This document shows positions 5,710 to 59,575 of a stretch of 60,000 bases of DNA, piece by piece. Each line of letters begins with the position of its first letter. Position 1 is the stretch's first letter. The notes under the pieces were generated by a model, which saw only the letters and a list, made by a program, of their open reading frames with translations, searched no databases and was not told where the DNA came from. The stretch lies in assembly GCF_026151205.1 (NCBI RefSeq), contig NC_087076.1:16341919-16401918 (forward strand). Reading direction: 5' to 3'. The stretch is from Bolinopsis microptera. Its lineage: Eukaryota; Ctenophora; Tentaculata; Lobata; Bolinopsidae. The position numbers were made by a program, and so were the translations under genes.

Positions 5710-6299
5710 AATATTGTTGACGTTTGACTGACAACAAATTTTCAGAAATCCTAATTATAAACCAACTGGATTGGTGTATAAATTGTGTATAATATTATGT
5801 ATCCTTTGTGTACAGCCATGTATAGACATCTATTTAAGCTCACTTCTTTTTCCATTACATCAATGTTGATTATTGCTACTTGCTTCGTGTTATATCTGTT
5901 TTATGTTTAATTCTGTAATAATTTATTTTTGAAAAAGGAGAAATGAAACTATTATCATTCAGTCGTGAATATAACCCAGAGTGTATAATGTTTTTTACAA
6001 ACTAATTGGCATGATAATTCCGGCGGTCGCAAGAAATAGTTGTCATTCTGTAGGGCGCAAACACGAAATTGTGTATTCCAGCATTTGTAAATTGTGCTTT
6101 TTGGCTGTTTTCTATGGAAACCAAGCCGCGCATTCGCCCGTTTTGAGGTGCCTGTGACGAAAATTTGGGCGCACGAGTTGACCACTCCACCCAAGAGGAA
6201 TAATTGTACATGTATAAAAGAAGTTAGTCAACTATAAGCCCCCAATCGGAAAGACCATCCCTGTTTAATAGTCAGAAAGCTATTTCAAGTATACTCCCA
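5710..6299. other. BBS1 3' flank, nothing further recognised
   Basis: AT-rich sequence after the BBS1 stop. It presumably includes the 3' UTR; no canonical AATAAA is seen close to the stop. The small minus-strand frames at 5955-6211 show no family signature. Confidence 0.5.
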
Positions 6300-6468
6300 T
6301 AAGGGGTCGTTCGCGTTCACATAATACGTAATCACTTTTTGGACAATTTTTAACCCCCCTCCGTAATCAGTTTTACACATAGCTACTGTGTCAAAATTAC
6401 ACTAGCGTAATCATTTGGAAACCCCCCTTCCACCTCGGCTGATTACGTAATATCTGAACGACCCCTAA
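6300..6468. mobile_element. MITE with GGGGTCGTTC termini and TAA target duplication (Harbinger-like)
   Basis: The element body spans 6303-6465. It starts with GGGGTCGTTC and ends with the complement GAACGACCCC. The inverted similarity continues inward to ATTACGTAATCA-type sequence on both sides. TAA stands directly outside both ends (6300-6302 and 6466-6468). A three-base TWA duplication is the hallmark of PIF/Harbinger transposons, so a non-autonomous relative is the simplest reading. At 163 bp it has no coding capacity. Confidence 0.7.
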
Positions 6469-6887
6469 CCAAAACAAGAAGCTTTATCGATTTTATCGAG
6501 GGCCCACAAAATGATGTTAATTACAAGCTTTTTTGGGCCACATTTACTGTTCTTATATGGTTTCCGAACTTAAATAAATGGTTTATTTTTCCGCTATTGG
6601 TCGCCACAGTAAGTTATCGGCAGCATATTCAATTATTCGTGATAACTATCGTTAAAGATAAAGAACCGGAAATATTGTGTTATCGCTCGTGTTCTAAATT
6701 TAGAAAGACCATCATGGCCCTGCAACGAATAAAATTGCAGCCTACCTGTTCGAAAATACATATATTTCTGTAACAACATTTCTTGTAATTTTCAACTCAT
6801 TCCAATTTCCAAGAAATATGTTCATAAATAGATACCATATGCACGTGGATATTTCATGATAATTTCGGCATTCTGACAAAGGTAAAG

Positions 6888-7012
6888 CAGGGTGTCATAA
6901 TGATTGGCGCGTCGAAAATACTCAGAAGTAAAGTTATGACCCTTTGAAAAATAATGATTTCATTACAAAATGCACGTGAAATTTCAAACACGCCAATAAT
7001 TCTGACACCCTG
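6888..7012. mobile_element. palindromic MITE-like element, CAGGGTGTCA termini
   Basis: CAGGGTGTCA at 6888-6897 is mirrored by TGACACCCTG at 7003-7012. The inverted similarity runs inward through roughly 25 bases (ATTGGCGCG against CACGCCAAT). The CAGGG ends recall hAT termini, but no convincing 8-bp target duplication flanks it, so the class is left open. Confidence 0.5.
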
Positions 7013-7308
7013 CTGTTCCCCAAAATTTTGTAACTTCTTCAAATCTATTTAAACCCTTTCTCAAACCCTATATTTAAGAAATGTCTGGATAGAGTCTGAA
7101 TTCATCATATTAAAGTTGAAATGGTATTATTAGATGTTTTGAATTGTGGATACAGTTATTGTGTCTCCAGAGATATTTTATGCCGGCTATTTAAATCTGG
7201 GTATCAATAAGAACACAGCGCCGTTTTGATAGACATGTAAATTAATTGGAATTCCATATAACAATGATAAGTTTGGTATTCAACCCTTAAAATGAATATT
7301 TTCCAAGG

Positions 7309-7695
7309 ATGGAAAGTCGAGGAAGGTATTTCCTTCACTGCCTATTAGCAGGGTGCTTTGCTTCATCCGCTGGAATTTCCGCAAAACTGATTTCCTCCTC
7401 TTCTCTACCGACGCCCTTCATATCCCCGTATATCAGGACTGGACTGTGTGTCACCTCCCTGGTCATTTGTAACATCCTCATGTGGTTAAACTTCACAACT
7501 GCCATGCAAGGCATGCGGACGGTGACTGCCACATCTGCCACAACTACTGTCAACTTCCTCTTTTCCGGTTTTGCTGGGTGGATATTATTTGGAGAGATTT
7601 TGTCCCTCTCATGGTGGTTGGGAATCAGTTTTATAATCGCTGGCGTGCTATTGCTCAACTCAGATCAGATTGACGAAAAGCGTAAGACTGAGTAA
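7309..7695 (+). CDS. TMEM42: TMEM42-like EamA-type membrane protein
   Basis: A single open exon of 128 residues with about four hydrophobic helices. It is shaped like half of a drug/metabolite transporter (EamA fold). Residues near the N-terminus (LLAGCFASSAGISAKL) resemble the CLCAGAFGALAAASAKL segment of vertebrate TMEM42. The C-terminal part matches the TMEM42 pattern TVTFSN..FSSAFLGYVLYGE..LWWGG..LI.CGL, here TVNFLFSGFAGWILFGE and WWLGISFIIAGVLLL. The human protein is about 159 residues and has a longer N-terminal tail. The ATG at 7309 is the first in frame and gives a sensible short tail. A spliced upstream exon cannot be excluded. The molecular function of TMEM42 is unknown. Confidence 0.75.
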   Translation: MESRGRYFLHCLLAGCFASSAGISAKLISSSSLPTPFISPYIRTGLCVTSLVICNILMWLNFTTAMQGMRTVTATSATTTVNFLFSGFAGWILFGEILSLSWWLGISFIIAGVLLLNSDQIDEKRKTE

Positions 7696-8301
7696 ACGGG
7701 AATTCTGGGCGGTTATTTTATTCTGTTGTTAGTTAGCGGTAGAGGAGTGTTTTACATAGTATAACAAATAATTAAACAGTTTCATTACATGGAAATAATG
7801 TGACATGTTGCGGAACATTCCACGGATATAATAAATAATTGACATTCTTTGACCTTGTTATCCGTGCAAAGATGAGTTCAGATTAAACTGAAACTTTGCC
7901 AAAGTATTTCATAATGCCGTAAATGCCGGAAAATGAATTGTTTTCCAAACTTTCGTTATTAACATTGCTATTAATATAAATCTGCTTTTTAACTTGAATC
8001 TTTAAACGAGTCCTTTTATGTTGTCACAGAAGAATGATGGATTAAGACTTAGTAATGGTAAATTACAGGACACACCAAAGTTCCGGAACTTAATATTATT
8101 GATTGAAACCCAAATTATGCCGAATTCCCGATCGTTCAGTCTTGAAGTGCGTGCTGGTCGTCAAAATACTGGGCGCAAAAAATTTCCGGAACTCCAAATC
8201 TAAAAACTGAAACCTAGATTATGCCAAATTCCCATCGACAAAGTCTTAAAGTGCATAAAAATACCAAAAATCTCAACGTGACAAATTTTACAAATACCTG
8301 T
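7696..8301. other. intergenic, nothing recognised
   Basis: AT-rich sequence. A short diverged duplication (ttccggaact...aaacc.aaattatgcc) appears twice at about 8080-8130 and 8185-8230. There are no convincing genes. Confidence 0.5.
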
Positions 8302-8314
8302 ACCTAGCACACGT

Positions 8315-9524
8315 CATTCTGCTTATTTGGTTCACAGGTTTTTCCTAGACTCTGTGATAGGATATTAGCTTTCTGTACCAGTTTTCCGTTATCTTAGAAT
8401 TTATTCTGCTTTTATTTTATTCCCACTCTCGATTCATCGCTAGCAGTCCGGTTAATTTAGTACCTTTAGCGGGTCTCATTTAATCATTAGGTTTTATTAA
8501 AGAACCTCTCACCCTCTAAGAAAGTTTTCACCGCTTCGTTCATTTTTAGCTTTTACTAAATTTTCTAACACGTGCATTATTAAGGAGTAAAATGCCTCTG
8601 CAGGCATTCCAGTTCGGTATATATTTTAACACTTCATGCACGGGTGCCATTCTGCTTATTTGGTTCACAGGTTTTTCCTAGACTCCGTGATAGGATATTA
8701 GCTTTCTGTACCAGTTTTCCGTTATCTTAGAATTTATTCTGCTTTTATTTTATTCCCACTCTCGATTCCTCGCTAGCAGTCCGGTTAATTTAGTACCTTT
8801 AGCGGGTCTCATTTAATCATTAGGTTTTATTAAAGAACCTCTCACCCTCTAAGAAAGTTTTCACCGCTTCGTTCATTTTTAGCTTTTACTAAATTTTCTA
8901 ACACGTGCATTATTAAGGAGTAAAATGCCTCTGCAGGCATTCCAGTTCGGTATATATTTTAACACTTCATGCACGGGTGCCATTCTGCTTATTTGGTTCA
9001 CAGGTTTTTCCTAGACTCCGTGATAGGATATTAGCTTTCTGTACCAGTTTTCCGTTATCTTAGAATTTATTCTGCTTTTATTTTATTCACACTCTCGATT
9101 CCTCGCTAGCAGTCCGGTTAATTTAGTACCTTTAGCGGGTTTAATTTTAATCATTAGGTCTTATTAAAGAACCTCTCACCCTCTAAGATAGTTTTCACCG
9201 CTTCGTTCATTTTTAGCTTTTACTAAATTTTCTAACACGTGCATTATTAAGGAGTAAAATGCCTCCGCAGGCATTCCAGTTCGGTATATATTTTAACACT
9301 TCATGCACGGGTGCCATTCTGCTTATTTGGTTCACAGGTTTTTCCTAGACTCCGTGATAGGATATTAGCTTTCTGTACCAGTTTTCCGTTATCTTAGAAT
9401 TTATTCTGCTTTTATTTTATTCCCACTCTCGATTCCTCGCTAGCAGTCCGGTTAATTTAGTACCTTTAGCGGGTCTCATTTAATCATTAGGTTTTATTAA
9501 AGAACCTCTCACCCTCTAAGAAAG
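8315..9524 (+). repeat. 3.6 tandem 333-bp monomers (5' part of composite element)
   Basis: Units start with CATTCTGCTTATTTGGTTCA at 8315, 8648, 8981 and 9315, a period of 333-334 bp. Copies differ by only a handful of substitutions, so the array is young or homogenised. The last unit stops after about 210 bp, at CACCCTCTAAGAAAG. Each full unit includes the near-palindrome TGCCTCTGCAGGCA and a CACGTG core. No coding potential is seen. Confidence 0.95.
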
Positions 9525-9737
9525 AAGATATTCCTTATTAGGTTCTATGTTATTAAATTTCCTTGTGTTTGAATACTGTCACTTTTTAACTGTTCTTAGT
9601 CATTGTTATTTTCGGCCGATTTCTGCAACGTTACACCGGGTCATCATTTATTATTTCTGGGATGGAGACGACTTATATCTACATTTAACCTGAAGCGTTT
9701 GCTTGTCTGACTTACTTCATTAGACTTTATTTCAACA

Positions 9738-11165
9738 TACCGTGTCGTATCATGCTTTATCGTGTCTCCTTCTTCAGAGACAGGCTTCTTTCAGCATACC
9801 GTGTCGTATCATGCTTTATCGTCTCTCCTTCTTCAGAGACAGGCTTTCTTTCAACATACCGTGTCTTATCATGCTTTATCGTCTCTCCTTCTTCAGAGAC
9901 AGGCTTTCTTTCAACATACCGTGTCGTATCATGCTTAATCGTCTCTCCTTCTTCAGAGACAGGCTTTCTTTCAACATACCATGTCGTATCACGTTTTATC
10001 GTCTCTCCTTCTTCAGAGACAGGCTTTCTTTTAGTATACCTCATACCATGTCGTATCAAGTTGTTTTTTTTCGTCTCTCCTTCTTCAGAGACTGGCTTTC
10101 TTTCAGCATACCGTGTCGTGTCAAGTTTTTATCGTCTCTCCAGCTCCTTCAGAGACAGGCTTTATTTCAACATACCATGTCGTATCATGTTTTAATGGTC
10201 TCTCCTTCAGAGACCGGCTTTCTTGCAGCATACCATGTCGTATCATGTTTTTATGGTCTCTCCTTCAGAGACCGGCTTTCTTGCAGCATACCATGTCGTA
10301 TCAAGTTTTTATCGTCTCTCCTTCAGAGACAGGCTTTATTTCAACATACCATGTCGTATCATGTTTTTATGGTCTCTCCTTCAGAGACCGGCTTTCTTGC
10401 AGCATACCGTGTCGTCTCTCCTTCTTCAGAGATAGGCTTTATTTCAACATACCGTGTCGTATCATGCTTTATCGTGTCTCCTTCATCAGACAGAAAGGGA
10501 AAAGCGTGGGGTGCCCTACATAGCGTGGGGTGCCCTACATAGACTGAAGGATATCTGGAAATCCAAACTCTCAAAGAGCCTAAAGATTAGATTGTTCATA
10601 GCGGCTTGTGAATCAGTACTGCTCTACGGATCAGAAACCTGGACACTGACAAAGGCTCAAGAGAAAAGTTTGGACGGGACATACACAAAGATGTTGCGTA
10701 TGGTGCTGGGTATCTCATGGAAGGACAAGGTCAGCAATATAACTTTGTATGGTAGCCTCCCAAGGCTGTCAAACAAGTTACGAAGCAGGAGATTAAAAAT
10801 GGCGGGACACTGCATCCGACATCCTGAGCTACTTGCCAGTGATTTAGTCTTATGGGAACCTACGCACGGTAGAGCACAGCAAGGCCGACCAAGACAAAGC
10901 TACTTGTCTATGTTACTGAAGGAAGTTGGGACAAACTCTAAAGAGGAACTGCGAACCCTGATGCGGGACAGGGATATATGGAGGGGGTTTTCTGGCGTAG
11001 ATCGGACTTAGCTCCGACATAGTAGTAGTAGTAGTAGTTCATCAGACACAGGCTTTCTTTCAACATACCGTGTCGTCTCTCCTTCTTCAGAGACATGCTT
11101 TATTTCAACATACCGTGTCGTATCTTGTTTTATTGTCTCTACTTCTTCAGAGACATTCACTATTT
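9738..11165 (+). repeat. ~60-bp VNTR with a conserved hairpin, split by a LINE fragment
   Basis: About 13 units lie before 10492 and two more after 11037. The repeat core is ATACCGTGTCGTATCATG followed by TTTATC and then the hairpin GTCTCTCCTTCTTCAGAGAC (GTCTCT pairs with AGAGAC). Most units are 59-66 bp. Because many are 60 bp, several frames stay open through the array and yield repetitive apparent proteins in both directions. These have no codon logic and are artefacts of unit length. Some units have a shorter loop and an extra outer G-C pair (GGTCTCTCCTTCAGAGACC). Confidence 0.9.
10482..11048 (+). mobile_element. LINE 3' fragment inserted in the VNTR, 11-bp TSD and (TAG)n tail
   Basis: The 11-mer TTCATCAGACA occurs at 10482-10492 and 11038-11048, bracketing 545 bp. 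The insert encodes the C-terminal end of a LINE reverse-transcriptase polyprotein: RLFIAACESVLLYGSETWTL, KMLRMVLGISWKD and GRPRQSYLSML, ending with a stop at 11011. After the stop come about 26 bases and a TAG microsatellite (about 11020-11037), typical of RTE-like tails. At the 5' end a 19-bp segment starting AGCGTGGGGTGCC is duplicated in tandem (10503-10521, 10522-10540). The element is severely 5'-truncated and landed after the VNTR existed. Confidence 0.85.
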
Positions 11166-11567
11166 CAGTCAAGGTATTTATCCTTATATTTATTATTGGT
11201 TTTAAAAATTTTTAAATTCAAATTTGTATTTTATTTATCAGTTTAATTTGAAGCACACTTGGACAAATAGAGCCTCCCATTTTGTTATTATTATCTAGAT
11301 AGGTGATAGGTACCATGGACACTGGATCTCAGCAACTTACAGAAGATACTACCTGTCATCATAATAGAGTCTAATGAACTCTACCCACAGGTTAGTCAGG
11401 CAGTGGATCACACTCTGATGACATCTCCTTTTGGAGATTTCGGACTCTCAGACTACCTATACTAGTTGAGTGTGTTCCATAACCTAGCACCCTGCCTAAA
11501 CGTTCGGTACTCCTGGACCTATGTGGCAAGCCTGCTCCCTGAACAAAAAAAAAAAAAAAAAAAAAAA
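11166..11567 (+). other. unique 3' module and poly(A) of the composite element
   Basis: A non-repetitive segment follows the last VNTR unit and runs into 23 A at 11545-11567. It contains a perfect small hairpin ATCTCCTTTTGGAGAT (11423-11438). Near 11505 a GTTCGGTACTCC string faintly resembles a pol III B box, but no matching A box is found. It corresponds in position to the SINE-R part of an SVA, though I do not recognise its origin. Confidence 0.5.
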
Positions 11568-11578
11568 CCTAGCACACG

Positions 11579-12429
11579 ACCGGTAAAGAATCAAATAACC
11601 TCCGGTGTCCGTATCTAAATACTACTAAAATTTAACGTCCGATTTTGTCAGCATTCTAAGTAGGTAGATCTTACATCTATCACTTAGACCGCCCCTTATT
11701 ATTATCTGTTTAATATCTCTTGAACGTTTGTATGCACTTCTGAAGAATATAATTCACGACTAGTCAATCCCCTAGGGAAGAGAAAAGAAAGGATCATTGT
11801 AAGAGTTCCATAATTCCACATTAGTCCGGATCACTGCTCCGGTATTTTCTCATATTAAATTCATTAAAAAAGTTAACAAGACAAAAGTGTCATCCATCAA
11901 ACGAAACAATCTCACATCAAAATGTAATTCAATTCAACTTGTCATATCATTTAATCATTTTGTCTTTGCAGATCAAAATGTAATTAAATTTATCTTCTCA
12001 TATACAAAAGTTTTGGCTAAACGCCGAAAGAAATCTTGAAATATTTCCTCACCTCACACCCTGGCCAGTGGCGGTTATCGTTAAATATTGTGATGGTACT
12101 ATTTTTATAAGAAGGCAGTCAAGTTGCTACTCTGCCGGCATTTTTGCAGAGCTTTTGGTACATCCTACTGATTAGACTTGGCTGGAAATGTCCTGAGACT
12201 GGAGCCGGATGGCTATATTTTACATATAGCAAATTAGCACTCAATATGGGTAACTTCCTCGCTATGAGTTAAGCACGTTAAGTCACTTCACAGTTAATGA
12301 ATTCCAGGGGAGGTTCACAAGATACTTCGTACTTCATGACTTCACCCAGCATTGAATAAAAATTATTATTAGTCCCACGTGGGTATAGACTTTGAAAGGA
12401 ATCTCAGTTTTGGGCGGCGACCCTTTCGG
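11579..12429. other. intergenic, nothing recognised
   Basis: AT-rich spacer between the composite element and the 3' end of the minus-strand death-domain gene. It presumably includes that gene's 3' UTR. No repeat or gene is recognised. Confidence 0.5.
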
Positions 12430-16106: not shown

Positions 16107-16336
16107 AGTACTATAATATATACTCCCTGTATAATACTCCGAAATATAACTAGTAAACACAATGTACTAGTACTATATACTCCCTGTATAATACTCCGAA
16201 CTATAACTAGAAAACACAATGTACTAGTACTATATACTCCCTGTATAATACTCCGAACTATAACTAGTAAACACAATGTACTAGTACTATATACTCCCTG
16301 TATAATACTCCGAACTATAACTAGTAAACACAATGT
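16107..16336. repeat. four 57-bp tandem repeats
   Basis: TACTCCCTGTATAATACTCC recurs at 16121, 16178, 16235 and 16292, exactly 57 bp apart and nearly identical. Because 57 is a multiple of three, it produces a repetitive minus-strand frame (16064-16333) that is not a gene. Confidence 0.95.
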
Positions 16337-17660
16337 ACGCGAGAGAGAATTACGTATGGGGTTAACACCATACGAAAAGTATGTTTGCTCTCGATGAAAG
16401 GCAAGTAGTCTGCCTTGCTGTAATGGTAGTAGTGTACCACGTACACTACAGGGAATGGGAAGCTGTCTAGAACATTATATACGAGACGGCCGCTGCTGGA
16501 GTCAACATATTAATATATAATATGTAGAGAGCATGATACGCACACAGTACAGAGCTCCAAATGTACAAGTAGAACTAGCAAGAGCGATCATTATTCCAAA
16601 TATGGCATAGTTACCTACCCTAGCTGCAAATGAGGGAAGTGTGACGTGATGGCGTTGTTGTATGTTGTGTCAATTTGGTACTAAGTACTGTACTGTAATT
16701 AGAGCGTGTAGCTTGGGTATAGTATTATTTCTGCAGAAAAATCTGGAGTGAAGGCGACTAGGTAGAATTATAATAAATTGTGTAGATACTTTAATGAATC
16801 AACACTAATTAAGTAATTACATTCGATGATTAGACCATTTCCGGATTGTAGCTTCAATTTCTATGAAATCTCGTACTTCAAGAAGCTAAATTTACTGATA
16901 TTCTACCAAAATTTTGTACAGAATATGGTCAAACGGGATAATGGATGTCTCGGACATTATAACATAACCATAAAATGACATTTTTACTAGTAGGTACACT
17001 TATGCTCCAATCGCTTAAAGCAGTTATGTAACCGTTCTGGAATTAACCAGATACGAAAAATTCAGATAGAATATTACGTAATAACGTAATGTTTAATCCA
17101 TATTGTAAAGGCTGGAGGGATATCGACGACAGAAAAATTACCCCCTGTTCACTAACTGGCCAGCTCAACCTTTTACATTCTTGACATGGCAACGATTACG
17201 ACACGTGTATCAACCACGTCACTCCTTCGAAGGAGTGAGGATTTACTGCTTTTCTCATAGACCAATCCTGTGCCATGAGACCGAGTTAGGGAAATGTTCA
17301 CGGGAAAAAAAGGAGGTACGACACTCACAATGTAATGGAAACCTTATGGAGCCAGTGAGTCGCTGAACTCTTGAAAGTAAATGTTTTACTGTGTGTAAAA
17401 AGCTTTTCGGTAAAAACATTATTTTATTGTGAAACTAAGGTCGTAATTTCAATTTTTGTAGACTTTTAAAGTTAGAATAATACTGCGGTATTTGTATCAA
17501 TTGGTCGTGATTAGTAGGTTTTGCCAATATGCCAATATGCCAAAAGATCAATCAAACAGTCGCTAATTTGAACAATGTCTCAAAGATATGAATTGGAATT
17601 GATTCATTTTCAGACTACTAGCTAAAGCCTTTAGACTATCTATTTCAAATTTCTTTCCAG
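16337..17660. other. non-coding, nothing convincing
   Basis: AT-rich. A 61-codon frame at 17181-17366 ends next to a GTGAGT donor-like site, but it has no recognisable family. Its phase does not fit the exon at 17661. Confidence 0.4.
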
Positions 17661-50788: not shown

Positions 50789-53166
50789 TATATGGACACG
50801 TTCATTGAAGTTTGAGGATATTGGTAAATTTCTAAAATAGCGTTTTCGACGATAGTGGCTTAATTTTAGCATCTATTAATTTAGCGTGTTCATAAGTTCT
50901 GAACATTAGCCACGTGACCCATACTCCCATATGCACTGCTCAGAAATAAAATGTATTGCTTTTAGGCACTATAATGTAAAAAATGTCACATTTTTGTGAC
51001 ATTGTTCACCATAGCTGCCCAATTATCATTCCTTGGTCTGAAATATAGTAGATTAGGTCAATCTAACAATTATGATACAACATTGGTTAAAGGGCACGGA
51101 TCGAACGGCTTTAAGGCAATATTTCGTAAACTTTGTCACACTCAGAATACGAGACCTCTTTTCTACTGTGAGGTGTCCTCAAAACCCTTTCAACTCATTA
51201 TTTGATGGTTCTTCTGCCAATCATAGCCCTAAAATATGTTGTTTTGAAAAGTTAGCTAATACATGCACTTGGTTATTGGGAAATGATGTAAATTCTGTCA
51301 CATTACATGGAATTTGAAATTCTGGGTGAATTTCCGAAATCATTTATATCTGATTTTGGTTTGGAAGGCGGGGAAAACTCTATATATGGACGATACACGG
51401 ATACAGTTGGTTCAAGTATAGGGCAGTTGATGTAAACATCGTCACAAAATGATACGACATCGTAAATAGGTTACATTTTGCGGGGAAAATCTATATAAGG
51501 ACGATACACGGATACAGTTTATTCAAGTATAGGGCAGTTGTTGTAAACATCGTCACAAAATGATACGACATCGTAAATAGGTTACATTTTGCGGGAAAAC
51601 TCTATATAAGGACGATACACGGATACAGTTGATTCAAGTATAGGGCAGTTGATATAAACATCGTCACAAAATGATACGACATCGTAAATAAGTTAAATTT
51701 TGCGGTAAAACTCTATATAAGGACGATACACGGATACAGTTGATTCAAGTATAGGGCAGTTGATGTAAACATCGTCACAAAATGATAAGACATCATAAAT
51801 AGGTTAAATTTGGAAACAATGATTATAGAATGAAATAGTCTGTGATTAACATATTACATACATTATAAAATGGGCAGGCGTTTTTATATTTCCTGTATCT
51901 CTGTATTAATCATTTCGGACTGTAATTAGGACTGTTCACGTGAAAGAAATTGTATCTAAATTTTACAATGACGTACTCGTATGTGACGAAATTTACATTT
52001 CTTGACACTATTTTGAAGAACCATACCTCGGTTAGAATTCAATGTTCTTCCAGGAATTATTGGTTGGTTATTGTTTAGCAAAATAGAACTCAAGTTTAAC
52101 AATGCTGAGTTTAATTTTACTAAGTTATTGAAATGTGACGAAATTCACTTTTCCTGCCCCAACAGTATAATTTCAATGTGATGAAAAATGGGCATGGGTT
52201 TCTATATTTCCTGTATAAATCCATTCTAGCTATAATAAGGGCAGTTGATATGAAAGAAAATCTATCTAACTAATGCTATGGCTGATGTGACGAAATTTAC
52301 ATTTCTTGCCCCTATTTTGAAGAATCATACCTCAATTAGTATGTAATGTTACTTTATCACCATCACTTTGTCGATAAATTAGTTATTTTGCCAACACGGA
52401 GCAAATAAAGTTATAATATTTTTTTGTGACGAAATTTACAAATTTTTACCCTGTTCAGTTGTCGAAATTTTGCCAATGTTAACATATCACTGCCATATAA
52501 TAATTTATATGACCGGCCTATGGTTGAAATATTGTTAATTGATCCATAGTACGTAATATAGGGTGTTTAAGTTGGTATACGTATATTTACTCAATTTCAC
52601 ACATGTTGAGATATCATACAAATTTATGTGACTAAATTTACCTATTTCTGCCTTCTGTATTTGTATTTGCCTATAACAATGAATTATGTGAACAATTCCA
52701 AACACATTCAGCTCACAAAATAATGCTAGACTATTCGGCATTTCTTGTCAGGATGTCATAAACATCCCTCATATAAATTTCTTAAATGTGTGACGGAGTT
52801 TACATGGTGCTACCATTTAACGAAAAAAGTCGCTAAATATGTAGATAATAGTCATATGCAACTATCCTATAAATTTGAAATTCGAAAATTTGGTCAAACA
52901 CGGCAACAAGGGGTCCATATAAACTCTGTCACGTTTTTATAGTGTGACAAAGTTTACAACTCACTGCCGGCCGCATTTAAGCGATATCTTATCGTCTGAT
53001 AAAGATATCGTTATGCGACAAAGTTTATCTAGAGGATGAAACGATTATCCTAACCATTGAGGGTTTATATAGTTTTATAGTGTGACACATTTTACATCAT
53101 CGTGCCATTTAGTAGGGTCACTAATATTTACCAATATCCTCAAACTTCAATGAACGTGTCCATATA
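50789..53166. mobile_element. 2.38-kb element with perfect 41-bp TIRs and polarised motif array
   Basis: 50789-50829 and 53126-53166 are perfect reverse complements over 41 bp (starting TATATGGACACGTTCATTGA). The motif TGTGACgAAaTTTACA occurs inverted in the left half at about 50975, 51125, 51288, 51431, 51542, 51653 and 51763. It occurs upright in the right half at about 51981, 52133, 52285, 52425, 52627, 52788, 52942, 53013 and 53080. TA can be read as target site on both sides. No transposase frame is present. It separates sulfotransferase fragment C from copy D. Confidence 0.8.
51368..51815. repeat. four 111-bp tandem repeats inside the 41-bp-TIR element
   Basis: ACGATACACGGATACAGTT recurs at about 51390, 51501, 51612 and 51723, exactly 111 bp apart. 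Each unit holds one inverted copy of the element's core motif (TGTAAACATCGTCACA). High identity suggests recent amplification within the element. Confidence 0.93.
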
Positions 53167-58380: not shown

Positions 58381-58768
58381 CATGATGCCGTTCTTCTTCT
58401 CCCTACTTCGTCCCCCTACTTCTTCTCCCTACATCTTCTCCCTACATCTTCTTCCTACTTCTTCTCCCTACTTCTTCTCCCTACTTCTTCTCCCTACATC
58501 TTCTCCCTACTTCTTCTCCCTACTTCTTCTCCCTACTTCTTCTCCCTACTTCTTCTCCCTACTTCTTCTCCCTTCTTCTTCTCCCTACTTCTTCTCCCTA
58601 CTTCTTCTCACTACTTTTCTCCCTACTTCTTCTCCCTACTTCTTCTCCCAACTTCTTCTCCTTCTTCTTCTCCCTACTTCTTCTCCCTTCTTCTTCTCCC
58701 TACTTCTTCTCACTACTTTTTATCCCTACTTCTTCTCCCTACTTCGTCTCCCTACTTTTTCTCCCTAC
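58381..58768. repeat. CTTCTTCTCCCTA minisatellite
   Basis: About 30 units of 12-13 bp based on TTCTTCTCCCTAC. It gives pyrimidine-only repetitive frames (58367-58882) that are not genes. Its right end abuts pseudogene F exactly at the word CTCCaGCAGATG. Confidence 0.93.
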
Positions 58769-59575
58769 TCCAGCAGATGTTACACAACTGTACAGTCTAT
58801 CTCACTCCATTTCCTGAAAAGTACATGTGGTGTGGCACCGAAGAGGAGCATCTACATCGCTTCAATTCGACAAAGTGCGTGAGAAATATGTGGAAGAACG
58901 GATTACGGATAGGAGTGTCACAACAATAGGAGTGTTCTGGTAGATACCAGAACACTACCGTGATCAAGGTTATAAGACTAAAGGATCTGTCCAGATTATC
59001 CAGCTCTCCTAAGAGTAAGACTAAGACACCCTGTGGCTCTAGACGGACCGATCCAAGAGTCTTCGGTGGACAGTAGGACAACAGAAGAATCTGGCTAAAA
59101 TGGCTTCGGAGGCTGTAACAACCATTTAAAAGCTATAGAAATGGTTGAAGGTGAACCTTGGTTAAAAGACAAATACTTGAGAAACACTCACCATGAAATG
59201 TCACTTAAACCTTTTGAAACTGCGGAGAAAGTTTACTCATTTATCGGAGCTACTCTAACCGATCATATTAAAGAATGCATTTTAAATATAACTGGAGGCG
59301 AATCAGAAGGATTTTTAAATCGTCCCAAACATGCTTTCAATGTTTACAGGAATTCTACGGACATCGTCACAAAATGGAAGAAATTGTTCTCAGTCACCTT
59401 TAATACTGGGACGTTTTCTTAATTGAAGCTCAATGTAAACGGATGTTTGAACCGTTAATAGGTCATTTTTCCGTTGATACGATACCTGTTTTTTAAAATA
59501 AATTCAGCATTAGATGAGTTATATGACGAAATTGATTTTGGAAGAAACTGACGATCCTAATTTTAATTACGACTG
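58769..59575 (+). pseudogene. sulfotransferase copy F, 5'-truncated and degenerate
   Basis: Similarity to the array begins at CTCCAGCAGATGTTACACAA, the middle of the gene, directly after the minisatellite. It is A-type (EEEHLHRFNSTKCVRNMWK). It has several insertions and deletions: a short duplication around GGAGTGT (58908-58940), loss of much of the segment before the 3' site, and frameshifts at about 59080 and 59420. The longest surviving frame, 59141-59422, holds WLKDKYLRNTHHEMSLKPFE and YSFIGATLTDHI. It ends with remnants of the acidic tail. It is clearly non-functional and older than copy E. Confidence 0.9.

Follow-up and report, generated by a model that had tools for sequence, protein, structure and literature searches.

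Structure of the insertion

The window analysed here is a stretch of 60,000 nucleotides from the ctenophore Bolinopsis microptera (C5:16341919-16401918; contigs and loci are cited by C and L numbers), and its positions 8302-11578 hold, on the + strand, one insertion of a repeated, non-autonomous retroelement. An earlier note, made from the letters of the window without database searches, had described here a 3.25-kb block bracketed by a repeated 12-mer and running from a monomer array to 23 A, in an order of parts like that of the primate SVA elements combined with 5' monomers like those of mouse L1. All parts of this block are present, and the 3.25 kb include a nested 545-bp fragment of a long interspersed nuclear element (LINE).

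The insertion opens with the 5' copy of the target-site duplication (TSD), ACCTAGCACACG (8302-8313), directly preceded by TGT. Tandem 333-bp monomers follow (8314-9524; full units at 8315-8647, 8648-8980 and 8981-9314, partial unit at 9315-9524). In a tandem-repeat scan the array (8315-9524) had a period of 333, 3.6 copies (three full, one partial) and a 98% match, and the element starts at TCATTCTGC, a monomer start that recurs in other copies. The linker (9525-9727) has similarity to the 5' untranslated region (UTR) of a LINE designated LINE-A and to elements of a second family, family 2. The variable number of tandem repeats (VNTR) region (9728-10492) consists of units of ~58-60 bp; in the scan it begins at 9725 with a period of ~58 bp, and 9725-10492 holds 10 perfect GTCTCT...AGAGAC hairpins and 13 unit anchors. 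It is interrupted by a later insertion (10493-11037), a (TAG)n-tailed 3' fragment of a different LINE, flanked by an 11-bp TSD, TTCATCAGACA, at 10482-10492 and 11038-11048; when 28 loci at 21 distinct places were compared, this fragment matched only L002, which is the window locus. The VNTR remainder (11038-11160) contributes two hairpins and two anchors, for 12 perfect hairpins and 15 anchors in the whole VNTR, and the VNTR folds better than shuffled sequences (z = -2.55, 20 shuffles).

The 3' module had been called unique, which does not hold for most of it. For its first ~138 bp (11161-11298) no similarity to a second LINE, LINE-B, was found in this subfamily; its last ~245 bp (11299-11544) are the end of the LINE-B 3' UTR, 91-96% identical in L034-L037. 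The poly(A) tail of 23 A (11545-11567) shares its last base with the first base of the 3' TSD copy, ACCTAGCACACG (11567-11578). The twelfth TSD base is thus an A common to the tail; the other letters, the 11-mer CCTAGCACACG, are found at 8303 and 11568 and nowhere else on the + strand of the window. A 9-mer of the TSD, ACCTAGCAC, is also present inside the 3' module, as had been pointed out, at 11482 and not at about 11486. It lies within the 3' end that is conserved among copies, where L027, a copy of LINE-B, has ACCTAGCACAC (11 of the 12 TSD letters), so the window TSD would by itself be weaker evidence than it appears.

In the window copy, reading frames of at least 60 residues are confined to the flank, the VNTR and the nested fragment, and a coding element was rejected on this ground. 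No Rfam family was matched at E values up to 1 in 8200-11650, by which a retrozyme or other Rfam RNA was rejected; together with the lack of any tRNA found in the window, the same result led to rejection of a short interspersed nuclear element (SINE) with an RNA polymerase III small-RNA head. Each window flank, searched separately, has a single match in this assembly, in which no empty site was found. Other tandem arrays in the window lie at 51371-51811 (111-bp unit, four copies), 16108-16338 (57-bp unit, four copies) and 58393-58769 (13-bp unit, 29 copies).

A dispersed family with a fixed order of modules

The genome searched comprised 264.65 Mb in 232 contigs. The 3' module gave at least 42 matches at about 40 places, with 40 of 195 first-look candidates scored, and exact 3' ends numbered 41, LINE-B ends included, against 0 for a reversed-pattern control. 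Twenty of the 3'-module matches were read with up to 9 kb of upstream sequence and, with the window copy, made up 21 loci. In all 21 the module ends in ...CCTGAAC followed by an A-rich tail, and the tails differ in length. Of two extra 3'-module matches inside these loci, that of L015 ends alike and that of L028 is without the last 20 bp.

The modules recur together, which was the check that the earlier note had proposed: monomers, linker, VNTR and 3' module stand in the same, SVA-like order in 13 of the 21 loci (window, L009, L010, L012, L013, L016 and L019-L025), with differing monomer numbers and with their own tails and TSDs. L018 begins in the linker and L011, L014, L015 and L017 begin in the VNTR; L026 and L028 have a 3' module without VNTR, and L027 is LINE-B itself. 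The 5' edge was testable in 19 loci, which excludes L016 (running off the fetched stretch) and L027; the edge of L028 was placed by eye from the sequence. An exact TSD of at least 10 bp was found at this edge in 14 of the 19 testable copies, compared with 1 of 342 mismatched flank/edge pairings, and the exact TSDs vary in length from 10 to 25 bp. Given the TSDs at the other copies, the doubt over the window TSD falls away, and the recurrence of its letters in the conserved 3' end is taken as chance. An 11-bp repeat 436 bp upstream of the L024 edge was left uncounted, and the exact 11-bp TSD of L015 sits within a longer imperfect duplication. With TSDs, 3' A-tails, 5' truncation and no reverse transcriptase (RT) of its own, the family has the features of a LINE-mobilised non-autonomous retroposon. 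Over ungapped columns, L009 and L012 do not differ from the window copy in the 3' module and six more copies are 99.2-99.7% identical to it there, from which it follows that the family moved recently.

Three of these loci have peculiarities of their own. L009 (C13:107-9900) is a composite ~0.9 kb from the start of contig C13, with its monomer array split by a stretch of ~1.8 kb. For L028, a structure of 3 kb bounded on both sides by the 3' module was considered and rejected: oriented positions 5780-9255 are a 5'-truncated composite with a 25-bp TSD, partly repeated by a local tandem duplication of ~3.1 kb that includes, on the opposite strand, a glycosyltransferase-like frame. An RT frame in L026 lies several kb from the 3' module and was set aside as unrelated.

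Fixed start and LINE-A-type 5' end

Eight of the 14 TSD-bounded copies begin within a few bases of a common monomer start, (C)ATTCTGCTTATTTGG: the window copy, L009 (with 6 extra bases), L013, L019, L021, L022, L023 and L025. The other six (L011, L012, L014, L015, L018 and L028) are 5'-truncated, their first base falling in the monomer, linker, VNTR or 3' module. The LINE-A copy L038 shares the common monomer start, and its sequence taken together with that of L042 reveals an 11-bp TSD. A shared start position in the monomer is as expected of a transcription start site carried by the monomer, and TCATTC around the start resembles the animal initiator consensus. Copies range in monomer number from a single partial unit in L021 and L023 to 22 or more full units in L016, which reaches the limit of the fetched stretch, and a fixed monomer start in these eight copies together with varying monomer number is the arrangement of a mouse-L1-type 5' end. 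Arrays of roughly 10-30 monomers (periods ~258-356 bp), far longer than that of the window and satellite-like in their growth, lie at C23:50307-63318, C25:350-3193, C10:6044396-6048166 (ending in L031) and C6:12235647-12246714 (ending in L010).

Over ungapped columns, the window linker is 84% identical to the LINE-A 5' UTR (L038, L039) and 90-91% identical to the family-2 elements L029, L030 and L032, and it has many relatives in the genome away from the 3' module. Family 2 (L029, L030, L031 and L032) consists of monomers and linker followed by a different body of ~650 bp and an (AAAC)n tail. Among the 40 linker matches listed, 10 are in the composite and 30 elsewhere; for 22 of these 30 a family-2 3' end lies on the same strand no more than 1.2 kb downstream, three (one of them L046) are without such an end, and five lie beyond C7, the limit of the listed ends. 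Exact family-2 or LINE-A 3' ends numbered 195, against 0 for the reversed-pattern control.

LINE-A itself is represented at C1:13643300-13650000 (L039, 852-6472) by an uninterrupted frame of 1286 residues with endonuclease, RT and RNase H. The L039 5' UTR is of linker type at 83%, with a further match of ~150 bp, and its 3' UTR is the family-2 body at 94.5% identity. L038 (C12:2053100-2061000, with L042) shows the monomer directly, and L045 (C7:19465200-19467400) its last bases, with monomer matches just upstream. These three were the only LINE loci read with such a 5' UTR; all are LINE-A, 96.5-99.6% alike in DNA where compared, and since 40 of 107 candidates were scored in this search further LINE loci of the kind may exist. 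In the composite family, L021-L025 retain a longer 5' UTR segment. L046 (C2:22561600-22563600, minus strand) has the linker just upstream and resembles the composite in its VNTR and in an additional segment of 5' UTR; what follows has no match to the 3' module, LINE-A or LINE-B and is perhaps a third 3' module or a deletion.

LINE-B 3' end and target preference

The earlier note had reasoned that a poly(A)-type LINE elsewhere in the genome would have to mobilise the element, and LINE-B (L027, L034-L037), with the same 3' end, is a candidate for this role. In L027 the endonuclease, RT and RNase H domains lie in two frames split by a stop, and the last ~245 bp of its 3' UTR correspond to positions 139/141-384 of the window 3' module. 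L034, found on another contig, is the same insertion as L027 (99.4%). Three further copies, L035, L036 and L037, are 5'-truncated and have the same 3' end at 91-94%; L036 has a 14-bp TSD and a tail of 19 A, and L037 a 9-bp TSD and 23 A. A second composite subfamily (L018-L026) retains ~48 bp more of the LINE-B 3' UTR than that of the window. A protein search for LINE-B gave at least six matches above 75% identity, with 82 of 4320 candidates scored; among them are L027 (the C30 copy), its sisters L040 and L041, C13:5866806-5867765 and C13:5842079.

Target preference was scored as the trinucleotide before the longest exact TSD, which excluded family-1 (composite) loci without TSD, L027/L034, L035, L029 and L039 (inexact TSD candidates only), and L031 and L032 (no TSD found). 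The null was the trinucleotide frequencies of the window, conditional on the last base not being A. AGT precedes the TSD in seven of the 14 composite copies (L009, L011, L012, L013, L018, L019, L021; binomial p = 1.5e-8) and TGT in three more (window, L023, L028), for (A/T)GT in 10 of 14 (p = 1.3e-10). Both TSD-bearing LINE-B insertions (L036, L037) follow AGT, whereas (A/T)GT precedes none of the four LINE-A-type copies L030, L038, L043 and L044; the contrast of 12 of 16 composite and LINE-B insertions with 0 of 4 LINE-A-type insertions gives a Fisher p of 0.014. The motif was first seen in the family data and LINE-B was then examined, so that L036 and L037 form an independent, if small, test.

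Reshuffling of modules

Over ungapped columns, L016 is 99.2% identical to the window copy in the 3' module and 93.1% in the linker; compared with L019 it is 97.5% identical in the linker and 87.7% in the 3' module. The linkers of family-2 L029, L030 and L032 are 94.9-97.0% identical to those of family-1 L021-L025 and 88.8-90.4% to those of LINE-A, whereas their bodies are 96.1-96.5% identical to that of L039; L031 shows the reverse pattern with respect to L039 (linker 98.8%, body 92.2%). These discordant identities indicate that 5' and 3' parts have had different histories, within families and between them. Template switching during reverse transcription, or recombination, would produce such reshuffling.

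Origin and mobilisation of the element

The insertion in the window probably belongs to a non-autonomous retroelement that depends on a LINE for mobilisation in trans, with a 5' end of LINE-A type, a 3' end from LINE-B and a VNTR between them, as judged from sequence comparison. The observation of the earlier note is confirmed and its interpretation supported, with two changes: most of the 3' module is a LINE 3' end, and monomers like those at the 5' end occur in the 5' UTR of a second LINE, so that the element looks like a LINE/LINE hybrid.

In the proposed mechanism, RNA polymerase II would start at a monomer and the transcript would run through the linker, VNTR and 3' module to the poly(A) tail. 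A LINE-B-type protein would recognise the shared 3' end, the tail or both, nick the target after (A/T)GT and copy the RNA by target-primed reverse transcription. Tandem monomers, like those of mouse L1, would keep a promoter in place despite the loss of 5' copies. The hybrid would most likely have arisen by template switching or recombination between a derivative of a LINE-A-type 5' UTR and LINE-B 3' sequence. A broader proposal, offered tentatively and judged slightly more apt to be wrong than right, is that such elements are modular retroparasites: a tandem-monomer promoter would circulate among non-autonomous families that bear the tails of different LINEs, a swap of the 3' end would change the mobilising LINE while the promoter is kept, and SVA-like composites would arise in this way outside primates.

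Several observations weigh against a trans-mobilised LINE-A/LINE-B hybrid. Five of the 19 testable copies (L010, L017, L020, L024, L026) have no TSD at the edge, and four of the 14 TSD-bounded copies (L014, L015, L022, L025) follow trinucleotides other than (A/T)GT. On the LINE-B side, a TSD was found in only two of four independent insertions, with none for L027/L034 or L035, and the target contrast is built on two LINE-B and four LINE-A-type insertions. No LINE-B with a complete 5' side or an uninterrupted frame was seen among the copies read. Among the 72 predicted pairs in the shared 3' region none showed compensatory changes, which leaves recognition of a 3' RNA structure unsupported.

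The strongest alternative concerns the machinery and is considered rather unlikely: any LINE might recognise the poly(A), as L1 does with SVA, and the shared LINE-B end would then mark origin and not mobility. The A-rich tails at all 21 loci and the lack of covariation just described fit this view, as do other LINE families with long open frames in the genome. The copies read included no intact LINE-B, even though near-identical young copies of the composite exist; the driver could be extinct, polymorphic, missing from the assembly, at a place not read, or a relative. Of the two LINE types compared, however, the target preference fits LINE-B and not the LINE-A type, and the shared end is 91-97% alike between L027 and L035-L037 or the copies of both composite subfamilies.

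Less likely still is an internal-deletion derivative of LINE-B alone, in which LINE-B has or had a 5' UTR of monomers and linker and the VNTR replaced the reading frame. If the same monomers stood in the LINE-B 5' UTR, the element would be a plain LINE-B deletion derivative. Among the protein matches the LINE-B 5' sides covered were those of L027, L040 and L041, and all three look truncated at the 5' side: L027 has no frame of at least 80 residues on its strand between oriented 3563 and 5297, and L040 and L041 gave no monomer or linker match. The lack of a LINE-B 5' end among the copies read, the additional LINE-B 3' UTR in L018-L026 and the longer 5' UTR segment in L021-L025 are in favour of this explanation. 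It is opposed by the three LINE loci with this 5' UTR (L038, L039, L045), all of them LINE-A among the 40 of 107 candidates scored, and by the LINE-A and LINE-B proteins, which are only 28-33% identical; a hybrid of the two LINEs is preferred.

Chance or mechanical juxtaposition of satellite array, VNTR and LINE end, moved by segmental duplication, is very improbable: monomer arrays do occur elsewhere (those on C23 and C25) and some copies are without TSD, but the same order in 13 of 21 loci, their own TSDs, A-tails of different length and the single-copy window flanks speak against it, and a satellite coincidence was rejected on the TSDs and tails. A long terminal repeat (LTR)-type element, a terminal-repeat retrotransposon in miniature (TRIM) or a hammerhead retrozyme, suggested by the tandem repeat units only, can be dismissed almost entirely on TSDs of differing length (10-25 bp), 5' truncation, A-tails and the lack of an Rfam match in 8200-11650.

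Comparison with known systems

With SVA, LAVA, PVA and FVA the element has in common its non-autonomy, a 5' tandem repeat, a central VNTR, a distinct 3' module, a poly(A) tail, TSDs and variable copy structure, as well as LINE trans-mobilisation, which is presumed here; the comparison is one of architecture and not of sequence. SVA owes its 3' part to an endogenous retrovirus and its 5' part to hexamers and Alu. In the present element most of the 3' module is the 3' end of the LINE presumed to be its partner, and monomers of LINE type form the 5' repeats. The SVA lineage is usually defined by an Alu-like 5' end and a SINE-R or L1-derived 3' end; the present element has a LINE-A-type 5' end, a LINE-B-derived 3' end and no Rfam match. 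The abstracts of PMC4432496 and PMC7353768 describe VNTR composite retrotransposons as confined to hominoid primates. No SVA-like element outside primates was among the literature matches listed, in a search with repeat databases outside its scope.

Mouse L1 (L1Md; PMC6454616, PMC9022269) likewise has a variable number of tandem promoter monomers of several types and a 'tether' to the body. It belongs to a different LINE group from LINE-A, whose endonuclease, RT and RNase H lie in the one 1286-residue frame. The Pr77 retroposons of trypanosomatids are not known to have tandem monomers, a VNTR or the 3' end of a second LINE. Their likeness to the present case is a 5' promoter module common to autonomous and non-autonomous families (LINE, SINE-like, SIDER and DIRE; PMC8190864, PMC4748587). 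LINE/SINE pairs are similar in that the non-autonomous element bears the 3' end of its partner LINE (cf. PMC3747384), and differ in the head, which is here a LINE-type monomer array, no tRNA or small-RNA head having been found.

On this evidence the element is by descent none of SVA/LAVA, mouse L1 or the Pr77 retroposons; the best reading is that it works like SVA and is no relative of it by descent. It would represent a convergent VNTR composite in a distant animal whose genome still contains the probable donors of both ends, which makes the route of assembly directly testable, including which end sets the partner, the role of the VNTR and the repeated evolution of monomeric LINE promoters. 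Its occurrence in a ctenophore suggests that the recipe followed by SVA is available far outside mammals.

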